In this document: piece by piece, positions 15,094 through 20,443 of the stretch
Position numbering within the stretch: position 1 is the stretch's first letter
Layout: the number at the start of each line of letters is the position of its first letter
Notes under the pieces: generated by a model
The model's database searches: none
Seen by the model: the letters and a program-made list of their open reading frames with translations, nothing else
What the model was told of the DNA's origin: nothing
Position numbers and translations under genes: made by a program
Assembly (NCBI RefSeq): GCF_001543895.1
Contig: NZ_JYIJ01000019.1
Coordinates: 248,001 to 312,000 of the forward strand
DNA from: Carbonactinospora thermoautotrophica
Lineage (GTDB): Bacteria; Actinomycetota; Actinomycetes; Streptomycetales; Carbonactinosporaceae
Direction of reading: 5' to 3'
DNA length: 64,000 nucleotides

Positions 15094-15660
15094 ATGCCAC
15101 CGACCGTCGAGCCGGCTGGCCCGAACGAGGCGTTACCGGGGCCGGCCGGCGTCGCCCAGCCGCGGCACCTGACCGCGGCCGAGGAACTGCAGATCGCCTT
15201 GGAGACGATCAACGCCTTCACCGGGTGGGTGCACAACGCGGACACCAAGATCGGAATCCTGGCCGGGGTGCAAGTGACGCTCGCTGTGATGGTGGCGAGT
15301 CAGGCCGAGGCGGCGATCGAGGCCGCGAACGTGTTCGGCGTCGCCGCGTGGGCGGTGCTACTCGTGTTCGTGGCGTGCTTTGCGGCGTCCGCCGGCTACC
15401 TGGGCCGCGCGCTGTGGCCCAGGCTCGCGGTGCGCGGTCGGCCCAACCGCTTCGCCTTCCCATCGCTGGCCGCATGCCCGCCCGAAGAGTTGGGTCAAGC
15501 TGATCCGGCACGGCTGGTCGCCGAGGCGTGGGAGCAGGCGCACACGCTCTCGCTGATCGCGCTCGCCAAGTTCCGTTACTTCGGCCGCGCCCTGTCGTGG
15601 ACCGGCGCGGCGTTGTGCTGCGTCCTGGCTTGGCTCGCCACTACGTCGCTGACCGGTTGA
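15094..15660 (+). CDS. DUF5706/Pycsar-effector-like membrane protein
   Basis: This 188-residue protein has a helical N-terminus leading to INAFTGWVHNADTKIGILAG, the W-x3-ADTK-x-G signature I associate with DUF5706, the family of the PycTM effectors of Pycsar anti-phage defence. Transmembrane segments are at about residues 53-69, 82-104 and 168-186. In known Pycsar systems a cyclic pyrimidine nucleotide activates such proteins to breach the membrane. Here it converges, across a bidirectional terminator, on an operon containing a nucleotide-cyclase homologue. Whether the two work together is inference; stand-alone DUF5706 genes also exist. The ATG at 15094 follows GAAGGAG. Confidence 0.65.
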   Translation: MPPTVEPAGPNEALPGPAGVAQPRHLTAAEELQIALETINAFTGWVHNADTKIGILAGVQVTLAVMVASQAEAAIEAANVFGVAAWAVLLVFVACFAASAGYLGRALWPRLAVRGRPNRFAFPSLAACPPEELGQADPARLVAEAWEQAHTLSLIALAKFRYFGRALSWTGAALCCVLAWLATTSLTG

Positions 15661-15715: not shown

Positions 15716-16621
15716 TCACCGGGTACTTGCCGGTTCGTCCGGGGCCGACACCGCGATGCCGAGGTGGCGCATCAGCTCGCGCAGCGCCGAGTCGTACGAG
15801 GTGACGAAGTCGTACAGGTCAAGCTTGTGATGGGCGTTGATGGCCTCCTCGCACAGCGCCCGGAGGCGTTCGGTCATCCGCCGCTGCTCGTCGAGTACCT
15901 GCTGCGCCACGGTGGTGACCTGGTCAGGATCAGCCGCCAGGCGCACGCTCTGCGCAGCGAACGGGCCGCGATCCCCCACCGCTGTCAGGAAGCCCTCCCA
16001 CAGCTCGCTCAACTCGGCCAGTTGGCTGATCCGCCGCTTGGCGAGCTGGTGCCGGTGTTCGGCTTCCTGCAGTTCGGTCCAGCGCTTCCGCAGGTGCTCA
16101 CGGACCACTTCGTCCGGGTGGACGTGCACCCAGACGCGGCAGCGCAGCAGGCCTTGGTCGAAAGACGCCGGTTGCTGGAGCTGGGCGTTCATGTGCTGCT
16201 CGGCGGCCACGTACTCGTGCGGCGGAAGTGTCCGTGAGACGGCTCGGAGCAGGGCCACAACCGTATCGTGGAGCCCCGGCTGGTAGGTGTGTATGCGCTC
16301 TTCTATCAGGAGCGGGGGACCACTGGCCTCCCAGGCGTAGTGGACCTCGACCTGGAAGTCGAACACGTCACCTTGACACGGGACGGCCACCTGGAAGCTG
16401 CGGTCGAAGCGATAGGGCGGCGAGGGTGGCGGGGGCGGCGAGGGTGGCGGGGGCGGCTGCTGGAACAGGGAGTTGAGCAGCCGGCGCAAGACCGCGAGCA
16501 CCGCCGGGAACAGGGAGCTGAGCACCCCGCGCAGGAACACGAACATCGCCGTCGTCGAGGGGTGCTGGAAGAGAACGCGCAGCCTGGAGCCGCGCATTCT
16601 CGCGGGGTCGGGGTGAGACAC
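15716..16621 (-). CDS. SPFH-like membrane-associated protein of the cyclase operon
   Basis: The 301-residue product has an N-terminal hydrophobic/amphipathic stretch (about 24-48, MFVFLRGVLSSLFPAVLAVL) and a polyproline linker (55-69). A globular part follows whose strand-helix order (FDRSFQVAVPCQGDVFDFQVEVHYAW ... LRCRVWVHVHPDEVVREHLRKRWTELQEAEHRHQLAKRRI) looks like an SPFH/stomatin domain followed by a coiled helix. It ends with further helices. The GTG lies six bases after the ATPase stop, so it is the last gene of the operon. I infer a membrane scaffold or sensor; the SPFH assignment is by eye and moderate. Confidence 0.55.
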   Translation of the reverse strand: MSHPDPARMRGSRLRVLFQHPSTTAMFVFLRGVLSSLFPAVLAVLRRLLNSLFQQPPPPPSPPPPPSPPYRFDRSFQVAVPCQGDVFDFQVEVHYAWEASGPPLLIEERIHTYQPGLHDTVVALLRAVSRTLPPHEYVAAEQHMNAQLQQPASFDQGLLRCRVWVHVHPDEVVREHLRKRWTELQEAEHRHQLAKRRISQLAELSELWEGFLTAVGDRGPFAAQSVRLAADPDQVTTVAQQVLDEQRRMTERLRALCEEAINAHHKLDLYDFVTSYDSALRELMRHLGIAVSAPDEPASTR

Positions 16622-16627
16622 GGTGAC

Positions 16628-18757
16628 TCAGTCCTTCATGACGCTCGACAACACCTTTTCGGCGCTGGCCAGGGTCTGCTGGCGGTGCGAACTCCACACC
16701 CGCAGGTAGAAGCGGAGCCGCTCGCGGACCGCCTCGTCGGCGGCCAGTTCGCCGGCCAGGGCGATCAGCGGGGTCAGCAGTCCCGGATCGGTGTCCGCCC
16801 ACGAGAACCACTGGCACAGCGCCTCCCACGCCTCGGCGCGCACCCCCGGCTCGACCAGCGCGGCCCGCCACAACCCGGTAACACCGTCGAGCCAGCGTTC
16901 GTCGTCGGCCAGCAACGCCGGGCGAGTGCCTACGGAGTCGAGCCGCGTGTTCTGTACCAGCCGGACGAAACACCGGATGCCGAGCCTCCGCTGTCGCCTG
17001 TCCGTGGAGGCGGTCCAGCCCCGCAGGGTGTGCAGCACGTCCGCCTGCCGCCCGGCCTCGAACATCTCAGCCAGGCTGTTGCCGACCGCGCGGATGACAT
17101 CCGGCCGCTCATTGCGCGAGAAGTAGGTCAGGTTACGAAGCGCGTCGTCGGGAAAAAGCGCGCCGATATCGGTGCCGTACGCGAGGACGGCGGTGCGTTG
17201 TCGGGCCAGGGAACCGCTGCGGCACCAGTTGCGAAGCAGCCGCCGTACCTGGGGCGCCAACTCGCTGTCGCAGGCGACGATCTCGAGGGCCCAGGCTGCG
17301 GACTCCCGCTCCTGCCGCCTCGGCGAGCTCGCCCAGGGATGGATGACCTCCTGGTACACGTGGTCGAAGTCGTGAACGGCGAACTTGCCCACCGCCTGGG
17401 CGGCCCGGACCCGTATCTCGACGCCACGGCTGCCGGCGAGCTGCCGGAGCCACCGGAGGATCGGGGACCGCGCCGCGTCGTAGTCCTGCCACACCACGTC
17501 CAGCACGGCCATCGGAAGCGCCGGGTTGCGGAAGGCCACGCACTCGACCGGCCTGCGTCGCCAGCTCGCGGCCGGGCGCGTCTCGACCTTGGCGTGGGCG
17601 ACCTGCAGCCAGTACTGGCGTGGATGCGCGAAGATCGGCCGACCAGGCTGCGCGCCCGGAACCTCGACCTGGCGCAGTTCCGTTTCCAGCGCTTCGGCCG
17701 CGTCCACCACCTGCGTGTACGGCAAGTCGTTGAACACCGAGAGCGCGATGAGGAAGGCCCGAAGCCGCAGCGATTCAGCCGGGTCGTCGTCCGGACGGGC
17801 CGCCAAGAGCTGCTTCGCCCGCCCACGTGCTCGCTCTCGGAGCCGATCCAGCGCCGCGTCGAGCGTCAGGTCGCCACGCGCCACCTGAGCCAGCACTGCG
17901 GCGAGTTCCGCCACTTGTCCCGGCAGCGGCGCGGCCTCGAGCGCGCGGACGACCTCCATGTCGGCTAGCAGGGTCTCGTCCACCCGTTCCCGGCCGCCGA
18001 GCCGCCACCCGAGGTGGCTGTACAGCAGGTCGCGAGGGTCCGGCGGACGATGCTCGACCAGGTACTGGTCGAGCCGGTCGACGGGAAGCCGCTCGGGCTG
18101 CTCCGCCACGGTCACCACCAGGTAGGCGTCCCGCTCTTCGAGCAGCCGCGCCAGCCAGTTGATCCGGGTCGGGGTGAGGGCACGGGTCCGTTCCAGCGGC
18201 AGCGTGTCGATCAGGTACCCGCACCCTTCCCGCAGGTCCCGTTCGTCGATCTGGTCGAGCCAGGCCTCGGCGTCCAGGCTCCACAGGCGCTCACCGGCCA
18301 CTGCGCCGAGCAGACAAAGAGCACTGGTGTGCTTGCCGGACGAGGCTGGGCCGCACAGGATCAGCACGTGGTGCCGCCGTAGCGTCCACAGGGCGCGGTC
18401 GTACGCTTCGAAGGGCACGTACACGGCGCGCAACGTGTCCACGGCATCGACGGGAACCGGGCCGGTGACCCTGACCGCCATGCCTGCCACAGCGCCGAAC
18501 GTCACGTCACGACCCGCCGCGTGGCCGCCGAAGCTGACCGGACCGGCGAAGACCGGATTCAGCCAGGTGGATACGCCCACCCGGCGCAGCAGCCGGATGA
18601 TCTCCTCTTCGACGCGCTGCTGTTCCTCGTCGAGCTGCTCGTCCAGATCGTCCTCGGCGTCCGGTGGGGGCGACGCGGTACCAGCCGGTTCGTCCGGCGC
18701 TTCCCCCGGCGAGTGCGCAGGCTCTTCCGCACGCCAGTCCATGGTTTCCCCGGTCAT
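16628..18757 (-). CDS. P-loop STAND-like ATPase with HEAT-like repeats
   Basis: The 709-residue protein opens with an acidic disordered region and a coiled helix (33-57), then FAGPVSFGGHAAGRDV (70-85), a motif shared with the C-terminus of the preceding cyclase homologue. A P-loop GPASSGKHT at 136-144 and a candidate Walker B strand YLIDTL at 181-186 define the NTPase. The C-terminal 350 residues are paired amphipathic helices of HEAT type (IRVRAAQAVGKFA, ESAAWALEIVA, DVIRAVGNSLAEMF). This is the layout of NLR-like signalling ATPases: N-terminal adaptor, NTPase, superhelical sensor. The ATG overlaps the cyclase stop as ATGA. No known family name can be given. Confidence 0.65.
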   Translation of the reverse strand: MTGETMDWRAEEPAHSPGEAPDEPAGTASPPPDAEDDLDEQLDEEQQRVEEEIIRLLRRVGVSTWLNPVFAGPVSFGGHAAGRDVTFGAVAGMAVRVTGPVPVDAVDTLRAVYVPFEAYDRALWTLRRHHVLILCGPASSGKHTSALCLLGAVAGERLWSLDAEAWLDQIDERDLREGCGYLIDTLPLERTRALTPTRINWLARLLEERDAYLVVTVAEQPERLPVDRLDQYLVEHRPPDPRDLLYSHLGWRLGGRERVDETLLADMEVVRALEAAPLPGQVAELAAVLAQVARGDLTLDAALDRLRERARGRAKQLLAARPDDDPAESLRLRAFLIALSVFNDLPYTQVVDAAEALETELRQVEVPGAQPGRPIFAHPRQYWLQVAHAKVETRPAASWRRRPVECVAFRNPALPMAVLDVVWQDYDAARSPILRWLRQLAGSRGVEIRVRAAQAVGKFAVHDFDHVYQEVIHPWASSPRRQERESAAWALEIVACDSELAPQVRRLLRNWCRSGSLARQRTAVLAYGTDIGALFPDDALRNLTYFSRNERPDVIRAVGNSLAEMFEAGRQADVLHTLRGWTASTDRRQRRLGIRCFVRLVQNTRLDSVGTRPALLADDERWLDGVTGLWRAALVEPGVRAEAWEALCQWFSWADTDPGLLTPLIALAGELAADEAVRERLRFYLRVWSSHRQQTLASAEKVLSSVMKD

Positions 18758-19491
18758 CGCGCGTTCACATCCCGTCCGGCGGCGTGGCCGCCGAAGCTCG
18801 TGGGGCCCAGGAAGAGCGCCCCGTGCATGGAGTCCTGGATGCGTACCCCGGACGCCCGATGCGGTGACCGATCCGCTTCGTCCGGCTCCTCAGCCGCTTC
18901 GTCGGCCTCGGGCAGCGGGGGTACGAGGTGGCCGGGCACGTGAATCCAGGCCTGCTGTCGGAATTCCTTTTCCGCGACCCGTACCGCGCGGTACGACGCC
19001 GGGTCGATTCCGGGGTACTCGTGCCGGATGACTTCCTGGTAGAGCTTGTCGGAAACGATGAGCGCCAGATCCTTGGGTGTTTTCCGTAGCGCCATCCGGA
19101 GAGGCCGGGCATTGAGCAGGCGCGCCGCAGTGACCACCGCCTCGCCCGGATACCCGGTTCCGTCCAGGTGGACCTCGCCGGCGTGCAGGCTGGCCCGCAA
19201 CCGCATCCGGCCTTCCGCTGTCCGATAGCGGTTGAACTGCTGAAGAGCGTTCCCGAGCTGTCGGACGAGATCGTCGAGGAGCCGGGTCTTCGGCACCTCG
19301 GGACGGATCAGGATCAGTTTCATGTCCCCTTGGTCCTGGTGCCGATCCGGGGTGATTCCGGCCGCCTGGAACGCATCCGCCAGCACCTGGCGCAGCGCGG
19401 CGCGCAACTCACTTTGGCCGGAATTGTTCCTGCGGCTGTAGCCTTCGATGTCGACTGCGACGATCGAACGGTGGACGGGATCGGAAATCAT
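18754..19491 (-). CDS. Class III nucleotide-cyclase homologue with C-terminal signalling motif
   Basis: Residues 5-180 of this 245-residue protein follow the class III cyclase fold. First metal Asp is in VAVDIEGYS (Asp14), second in DQGDMKLIL (Asp56), and the LHAGEV...GEAVVTAARLL core retains the catalytic Arg124. The usual transition-state Asn (VNxAAR) is Val120 here, so activity is uncertain. After an acidic linker the protein ends with FLGPTSFGGHAAGRDV (227-242), repeated in the ATPase encoded next. The ATG at 19491 (GAGGG upstream) is preferred to a TTG at 19530. Related actinobacterial cyclase-like proteins occur in conflict systems; the product nucleotide is unknown. Confidence 0.65.
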   Translation of the reverse strand: MISDPVHRSIVAVDIEGYSRRNNSGQSELRAALRQVLADAFQAAGITPDRHQDQGDMKLILIRPEVPKTRLLDDLVRQLGNALQQFNRYRTAEGRMRLRASLHAGEVHLDGTGYPGEAVVTAARLLNARPLRMALRKTPKDLALIVSDKLYQEVIRHEYPGIDPASYRAVRVAEKEFRQQAWIHVPGHLVPPLPEADEAAEEPDEADRSPHRASGVRIQDSMHGALFLGPTSFGGHAAGRDVNAR

Positions 19492-19563
19492 GTGCCCTCG
19501 CTTCGCCGTTTCGGCCGGTTGCGGCACCAAGATGAAGCCGTCACCGAGGCGAGAACAGGTAAA

Positions 19564-19618: not shown

Positions 19619-20299
19619 TCAGCTCACATCCCGCAGCGCCTGCGGACGCAGGATCGTCACATGCCGTCGACGGGTCTTGATCAGTCCTTCGGCGCGGAAC
19701 TCGCGCAGGGCCTTGACCACCGATTCCAAAGACGCGCCGACCAGACCGGCCAAATCAGTCTGCGAGAGCGCCAGATCGATCGCTCGGCCATCCGGGGTGT
19801 CGCGTCCGTACCACTCGTCCAGTTCGAGCAGGACGAGGGCCAGCCGCCGCCGGACGCTGTACGCCCCGAACTGGAGGCGGCGCAGGTTCGCGGCGCGTAG
19901 TCGGCCGGCGACCAGGCGGGTGAGCACCAACGCCGCAGCCGGATGGCGCAGCAGGAACCCGTGGAACGTCGAGCCGGCGATCACCCTGCTGTGCACCCGT
20001 TCGAGCGCGGTGACCGTGGCCGAGCGCGGCATCTGGTCCAGCCATGCCAGTTCGCCGAGGATGTCACCCGGGCCGCGGATCGCCAGCACCGCCTCGTATC
20101 CGCTCGGCGCCCGCGAGGTGACCTTGACCCTTCCGCTGAGCAGCAGCACCACGTGGTGCGACCGCTCGCCTTCCCGGAGCAGGACCTCTCCGGCCTCGTA
20201 CTGGCGGGCGATGCCCAGCTTCAGCAGGTGCTGGCGCGCGGCAGGGGCGAGATGAGCCAACAGTCCACTGGCTCGGACCCCGGCCGCCCCAGCGCCCAT
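19619..20299 (-). CDS. Crp/Fnr-family cyclic-nucleotide-type transcription regulator
   Basis: The 226-residue protein has an N-terminal cNMP-binding beta-roll (residues 20-125: YEAGEVLLREGERSHHVVLLLSGRVKVTSRAP... GDILGELAWLDQMPRSATVTAL) with the GELA-x6-RSAT phosphate-binding cassette well preserved. A long dimer helix and a C-terminal HTH_Crp (LSQTDLAGLVGASLESVVKALREFRAEGLI) follow. No Fnr cysteines are present. The ATG at 20299 (AAGGA upstream) is preferred over a TTG at 20371. It is the first leftward gene before the cyclase homologue, so a cyclic nucleotide made by that protein is an obvious candidate ligand, though this is inference. Confidence 0.85.
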   Translation of the reverse strand: MGAGAAGVRASGLLAHLAPAARQHLLKLGIARQYEAGEVLLREGERSHHVVLLLSGRVKVTSRAPSGYEAVLAIRGPGDILGELAWLDQMPRSATVTALERVHSRVIAGSTFHGFLLRHPAAALVLTRLVAGRLRAANLRRLQFGAYSVRRRLALVLLELDEWYGRDTPDGRAIDLALSQTDLAGLVGASLESVVKALREFRAEGLIKTRRRHVTILRPQALRDVS

Positions 20300-20443
20300 G
20301 CCCGCGATCCTTCTCCCGCACCGAATCACCCGTTCGAGGCAGGATTGATTTTGGCTGGGTGCTTCGATCAAGACAACGGAAATGTCGGATTACGCAAGGG
20401 CGCTGTCATAGCTACGCCGGGTGAGCGCGCGCTCGCGACTGGG

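Follow-up and report, generated by a model that had tools for sequence, protein, structure and literature searches.

A short motif co-varies between a STAND ATPase and its adjacent class III cyclase-like protein and suggests homotypic recruitment

The window analyzed here—the whole 64,000-nucleotide stretch of Carbonactinospora thermoautotrophica contig NZ_JYIJ01000019.1 from position 248,001 to 312,000—contains two overlapping genes whose products carry nearly the same glycine-rich peptide, one at the C-terminal end of a cyclase-like protein and the other near the N-terminus of an ATPase. The features concerned are the following, with positions counted within the window:

18754–19491, minus strand: class III nucleotide-cyclase-like protein, ATG start, 245 aa
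16628–18757, minus strand: nSTAND-type NTPase with C-terminal HEAT-like repeats, 709 aa
18766–18813, minus strand: cyclase C-terminal motif FLGPTSFGGHAAGRDV, residues 227–242 of 245, followed by NAR
18503–18550, minus strand: ATPase N-terminal motif FAGPVSFGGHAAGRDV, residues 70–85 of 709

The motif pair in the window

The motifs FLGPTSFGGHAAGRDV and FAGPVSFGGHAAGRDV are identical in 14 of 16 residues and in 35 of 48 nucleotides. Both the peptides and their degree of identity had been given in a sequence-only reading of this DNA and are confirmed here. The same reading had pointed to different synonymous codons and proposed selection at the protein level, and this holds as well: at the identical four-fold codons of the pair the third base is the same in 3 of 9, with an expectation of ∼0.37 from third-base composition. 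Since this agreement is at chance level, the two motifs are not a fresh DNA duplication—a recent duplication of the pair is ruled out by the third-base divergence—and their match is maintained at the protein level. The best ungapped match between the whole cyclase and the whole ATPase scores 78, compared with a mean of 35 and a maximum of 58 in 1000 shuffles (Gumbel p ∼6e-7). A chance or low-complexity origin of the match is ruled out by this shuffling together with the permutation tests described below. Exact matches to a degenerate 24-nt pattern encoding the core GHAAGRDV occur at only these two sites of the 5.13-Mb genome; this search and that of the neighboring open reading frames rule out the motif as a common element found elsewhere.

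The cyclase and ATPase genes share 4 nt (18754–18757), which suggests coupled translation; an alternative TTG start of the cyclase gene is possible at 19530. In the AlphaFold2 (AF2) model of the cyclase, FLGPTSFGGHAAGRDV lies within a low-confidence tail with block means of pLDDT between 46 and 62 from residue 201 onward. FAGPVSFGGHAAGRDV is placed between the helix 33–65 and the NTPase domain of the ATPase, inside a stretch (60–95) with pLDDT below 50. As judged by these models, the motif lies in an apparently disordered linker or tail in both proteins.

The cyclase-like protein and the STAND ATPase

Pfam, NCBIfam, and PADLOC give no confident name to the window cyclase or ATPase alone; both could be named from alignments of their homologues. 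A 'CATRA' lead led nowhere. In the PDB, the profile of 46 cyclase homologues (A1) matches class III cyclases, among them the adenylyl cyclase Ma1120, with a best E of 1.9e-6, and the AF2 model (pLDDT 86) resembles class III cyclases with a Foldseek E of 6.5e-10. The metal-binding residues Asp14 and Asp56 are invariant (46 of 46), and the Arg of the NxAxR motif is present in 45 of 46. The Asn position of this motif is more variable: 23 of the 46 cyclases carry Asn there, 17 carry Asp, and 6, including the window cyclase, carry Val. The PADLOC PycC model matches three of the 46 family members (best E 0.0064), the window cyclase not being among them.

A STAND-type P-loop NTPase domain followed by repeats was found among the ATPase homologues. 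In the window ATPase, nSTAND3 (PF20720) is detected at an E of 7.1e-5, below the Pfam cut-off, and it is found in 15 of 39 homologues with a best E of 5e-7; HEAT_2 is found in 10 of the 39. In Foldseek, the AF2 model (pLDDT 82) matches HEAT/ARM proteins and, with weaker similarity, the STAND filament of AVAST5. Of the 39 aligned STAND homologues (alignment A3), 38 have an arginine (GxxxSGR/TGR) at the position of the Walker A lysine, and the window ATPase is the only one to keep the lysine (GPASSGKH). As read from these sequences, the Val of the cyclase in the window and the Walker A arginine in the relatives of its ATPase would both count against a simple enzyme story.

Distribution and gene order

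Scans of sequence collections with the single proteins gave no relatives, and searches of genomes at the level of the order and the class did find some. At approximately 30% identity, homologues of the ATPase occur in 206 of 392 genomes from the order; among 395 genomes drawn from the class, 46 have one. The loci compared here comprise 80 from the order and 20 from other families, each with an ATPase homologue. A cyclase homologue lies directly upstream on the same strand in 75 of the 80 order-level loci, often with an overlap of 4 to 7 nt, and upstream of the ATPase in 16 of the 20 loci from other families. The sequence-only reading had proposed a search of actinobacterial termini for paired motifs in adjacent genes; the pairing of the two genes is conserved in these 75 of 80 and 16 of 20 loci.

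Approximately 35 of the 80 loci (among the Streptomyces-like loci L032–L111) lie, as judged by eye, between rpoC and fusA/rpsG. Such a conserved housekeeping position in many species, as opposed to a mobile island, may speak for a physiological role besides defense. The literature on S. coelicolor SCO4656–4658, considered as possible orthologues, yielded nothing useful.

Co-variation of the motifs

The arrangement of the motifs is the same in the different lineages, with very different sequences. Many Streptomyces-like loci feature GGSLVGGDQHGVSGGQVTGDV; further lineage versions are FGSGDAAGTIYKNY, HGSGTLISSGSVHTMNF, VGVIGGATISGG, FTVTGGDITHGDHHGDK, and GKGGNANVSGGDQTINQ. In most loci the partner protein bears the matching version, and the matched stretch spans 16 to about 30 residues, nearly residue by residue. 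When cyclase C-termini and ATPase N-termini of 92 pairs were compared, the mean score was 73.4 for cognate and 37.3 for non-cognate combinations; 73 of the 92 cognate pairs scored above 99% of their shuffles and 19 below that threshold. For the window motif, the score is 78 with its own partner; over the 91 other loci, it is at most 34 with the ATPases and at most 43 with the cyclases.

This preference for the cognate partner was also evaluated by permutation on unrelated loci, with one representative per cluster and 15 to 37 clusters defined by similarity of the protein bodies. Cognate combinations averaged 53–60 as observed and 26–28 after permutation, with p at its floor (5e-4), and in more than half of the unrelated clusters no partner scored better than the cognate one. 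The cognate match also holds within the largest related group after de-duplication. An earlier permutation on longer, unmasked termini was noisier and had the same outcome. No convincing copy of the motif was found in the other open reading frames of the tested loci, the eight listed matches being low-complexity. The sequence-only reading had named one finding that would speak against it, namely a motif that is widespread in unrelated proteins whose genes are not paired; this was looked for and does not describe what is seen here.

One cyclase (L065) has seemingly lost its tail motif, ending in a low-complexity Gly/Ser tail, and its ATPase copy is kept. Its close relatives L061, L073, and L074 retain both motif copies; decay or a frameshift is a possible origin of the L065 tail.

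Four relatives of the cyclase without a STAND neighbor (L166, L167, L168, and L170) adjoin genes of small helical proteins. In L167 and L168, the C-terminus of the small protein matches the C-terminus of the cyclase (SVVANDSARAIGVQHGDVHIHNL versus TAVAHDYATVFAVQHGDMHLHGL); these small proteins have no Pfam match and may be BELL-like. From these matches, the tail motif may serve as an adaptor of general use on these cyclases. A separate cyclase subfamily (L156–L159 and L161–L165) is of a different architecture: its C-terminus is unrelated, with a conserved segment, GPVAVLLADEASLLDELAGLGVRTVVLVGG, and without the tail motif.

Surrounding genes

The sequence-only reading had found the motif pair and had missed the class III and nSTAND/HEAT identities of the two proteins as well as three further genes of the locus:

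19619–20371, minus strand: Crp/Fnr regulator with a cyclic-nucleotide-binding domain (PF00027 E 1.1e-21, PF13545 E 7.9e-18)
15716–16621, minus strand: SPFH/Band_7-like protein with a Pro-rich linker, the third gene of the operon
15094–15660, plus strand: PycTM (Pycsar effector) membrane protein (PF18967 E 4.7e-7, 30.6 bits versus a cut-off of 27.2)

The Crp/Fnr gene lies directly upstream of the cyclase gene. Of the 75 paired loci, 74 have a homologue of it, in 71 cases on the same strand. The SPFH-like protein is without the motif; Band_7 is detected in 5 of its 27 homologues with a best E of 7.4e-6. The PycTM gene of the window adjoins the SPFH-like gene and is convergent with the operon. 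With profiles built here, a PycTM-like gene was found at 67 of the 80 loci; in 60 it lies on the same strand downstream of the ATPase, at a median distance of 1.3 kb. The Pfam cut-off for PycTM is passed by 5 of 10 representative related loci. Genome-wide, PycTM has 23 matches in 26 genomes, 13 of which—counted from coordinates—are near such a cyclase or STAND gene. Because PycTM is this rare, its association with the locus is not background. Taken as a set, the Crp/Fnr, SPFH, and PycTM neighbors point to a likely role for the cyclase.

The genome of the window features three more PycTM matches (on contigs C8 and C9 and, below threshold, on C17) in long open frames of 398–642 aa, and other Pycsar-like loci may therefore exist in it.

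Proposed mechanism and alternatives

The co-changing tags in about a hundred related gene sets suggest, at the level of sequence, that a receptor recruits an enzyme and switches it on. We propose that the motif is a homotypic recruitment element through which an NLR-like STAND sensor is linked to a class III cyclase as its effector, and that it resembles bacterial amyloid signaling sequences (BASS) in where it lies and how it works; we assign to this a probability of roughly 0.6. The sequence-only reading had arrived at homotypic recruitment of the cyclase by the ATPase on the basis of the window; the pairing, the co-variation, the absence of the motif from the other open reading frames tested, and the linker position support it well. 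The effector is a class III cyclase homologue and not one of the BELL, CHAT, or TIR proteins known from BASS pairs. The whole locus is best read as a STAND-gated, Pycsar-like second-messenger system, in which the sensor recruits the cyclase via a lineage-specific, BASS-like motif.

In such a system, the STAND/HEAT protein would sense a trigger and oligomerize, bringing its flexible N-terminal motifs into a cluster. The clustered motifs would then directly contact and nucleate their counterpart in the cyclase tail, possibly in an amyloid-type structure. Cyclase domains clustered on this template would become active—class III enzymes work as dimers—and produce a cyclic nucleotide. Two products of the locus, PycTM as membrane effector and the Crp/Fnr regulator, are the putative receivers of this nucleotide, and the SPFH protein is the likely membrane scaffold.

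A different account, which we regard as unlikely and still as the strongest of the competitors, holds that the motif peptides dock on a common third partner, which might be the membrane, a chaperone, or the SPFH scaffold, and co-vary by following one binding site. Short linear motifs in disordered tails often bind a folded partner, as is generally known, and a candidate partner is at hand, given that an SPFH-like profile homologue is encoded downstream in 39 of the 80 loci. However, no SPFH gene was found at about half of the loci, where the motif pair is kept nonetheless, and the matched stretch is longer and closer than a shared docking site would require.

Concerted evolution without function—an ancestral duplication followed by gene conversion between the adjacent copies—is improbable as an explanation of the match. 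The copies are only some hundred bases apart, and at identical four-fold codons of 66 pairs the third base is the same in 64%, with 47% expected from codon use. This excess stems from one large related group, where DNA-level exchange may consequently help to keep the copies alike. Outside this group, however, approximately 80 of 163 third bases agree, which is chance level as in the window pair (3 of 9), and the proteins are still matched; DNA exchange hence does not explain the older pairs, including that of the window. Moreover, the matches do not extend beyond the motif, which keeps a constant position with respect to both folds, and the linkers on either side of it have diverged freely.

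That the motif is a fixed structural element, a glycine-rich part of some common fold present in both proteins by coincidence, is very improbable. The repetitive, glycine-rich sequence does resemble β-solenoid turns by eye, but the motif is found in low-confidence regions, away from the cyclase and NTPase domains. It varies in sequence from lineage to lineage, mainly matches the partner's copy, and is absent from the other neighboring open reading frames, as is its exact core from the rest of the genome.

The homotypic recruitment of the cyclase can be extended to a more far-reaching and tentative picture, to which we give somewhat less than even odds: a large actinobacterial family of NLR-like sensors would template a lineage-specific, possibly amyloid motif and thereby turn on a cyclase, whose nucleotide would fire PycTM and the Crp regulator. 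If true, amyloid-type signaling and Pycsar-type signaling would be joined in one pathway.

Comparison with known systems

Pycsar consists of a PycC cyclase and a PycTM or PycTIR effector; cyclic pyrimidines activate PycTM, which disrupts the membrane (PMC11224242). The present locus shares with it a class III-type cyclase gene near a PycTM gene and the metal-binding Asp pair. It differs in its extra STAND, Crp/Fnr, and SPFH genes, in a cyclase that barely matches the PADLOC PycC model, and in the PycTM gene of the window, which is convergent and outside the operon. As judged by sequence, the locus looks like a Pycsar variant with a dedicated sensor, membership not being proven. The literature consulted does not state how Pycsar cyclases sense infection, and the sensor–cyclase pair offers a candidate trigger for a Pycsar-like cyclase. 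A literature search that covered few subscription papers found no description of a sensor–cyclase system of this kind.

The ternary and iSTAND conflict systems carry effector-associated domains (Kaur 2020, PMC7159879; Kaur 2021, PMC8195603). They resemble the present system in joining STAND NTPases and effectors—sometimes cNMP cyclases or Band-7 proteins—by homotypic adaptors in multicellular prokaryotes. Their adaptors, however, are folded α-helical domains, in contrast to the short, apparently disordered motif found here, and they contain MoxR/vWA, none of which is among the recurrent neighbors of the present loci.

A likeness of logic exists to the amyloid signalosomes with fungal NWD2/HET-S, RHIM, and PP motifs, in which a receptor templates the polymerization of a short motif on an effector (PMC7889193). 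Here, the effector is neither a pore-former nor a kinase and may, as an enzyme, produce a second messenger.

A close counterpart is found in the NLR/BELL gene pairs of bacteria with their BASS motifs (reviewed in PMC7889193 and PMC8086366), of which ten families have been described. These motifs occur at the N-termini of NLRs and the C-termini of BELL and, less often, CHAT or TIR proteins, encoded by adjacent genes in filamentous bacteria (PMC7889193). The present pairs likewise feature adjacent or overlapping genes, a short motif that an NLR-like protein bears N-terminally and its effector C-terminally, and many lineage-specific motif families that are matched within the pair, again in filamentous actinobacteria. 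They differ in two respects: the receptor is an nSTAND protein with HEAT-like repeats, and the effector is class III cyclase-like, whereas the BASS pairs in the literature consulted are described with BELL, CHAT, or TIR effectors. By analogy, the present pairs would work like BASS pairs and are not filed as members of BASS. A conserved sensor–cyclase pair of this kind, joined by co-varying terminal motifs, would extend motif-templated NLR signaling to second-messenger enzymes, and the some dozens of natural, mutually distinct motif pairs form a set for studying the specificity of assembly.
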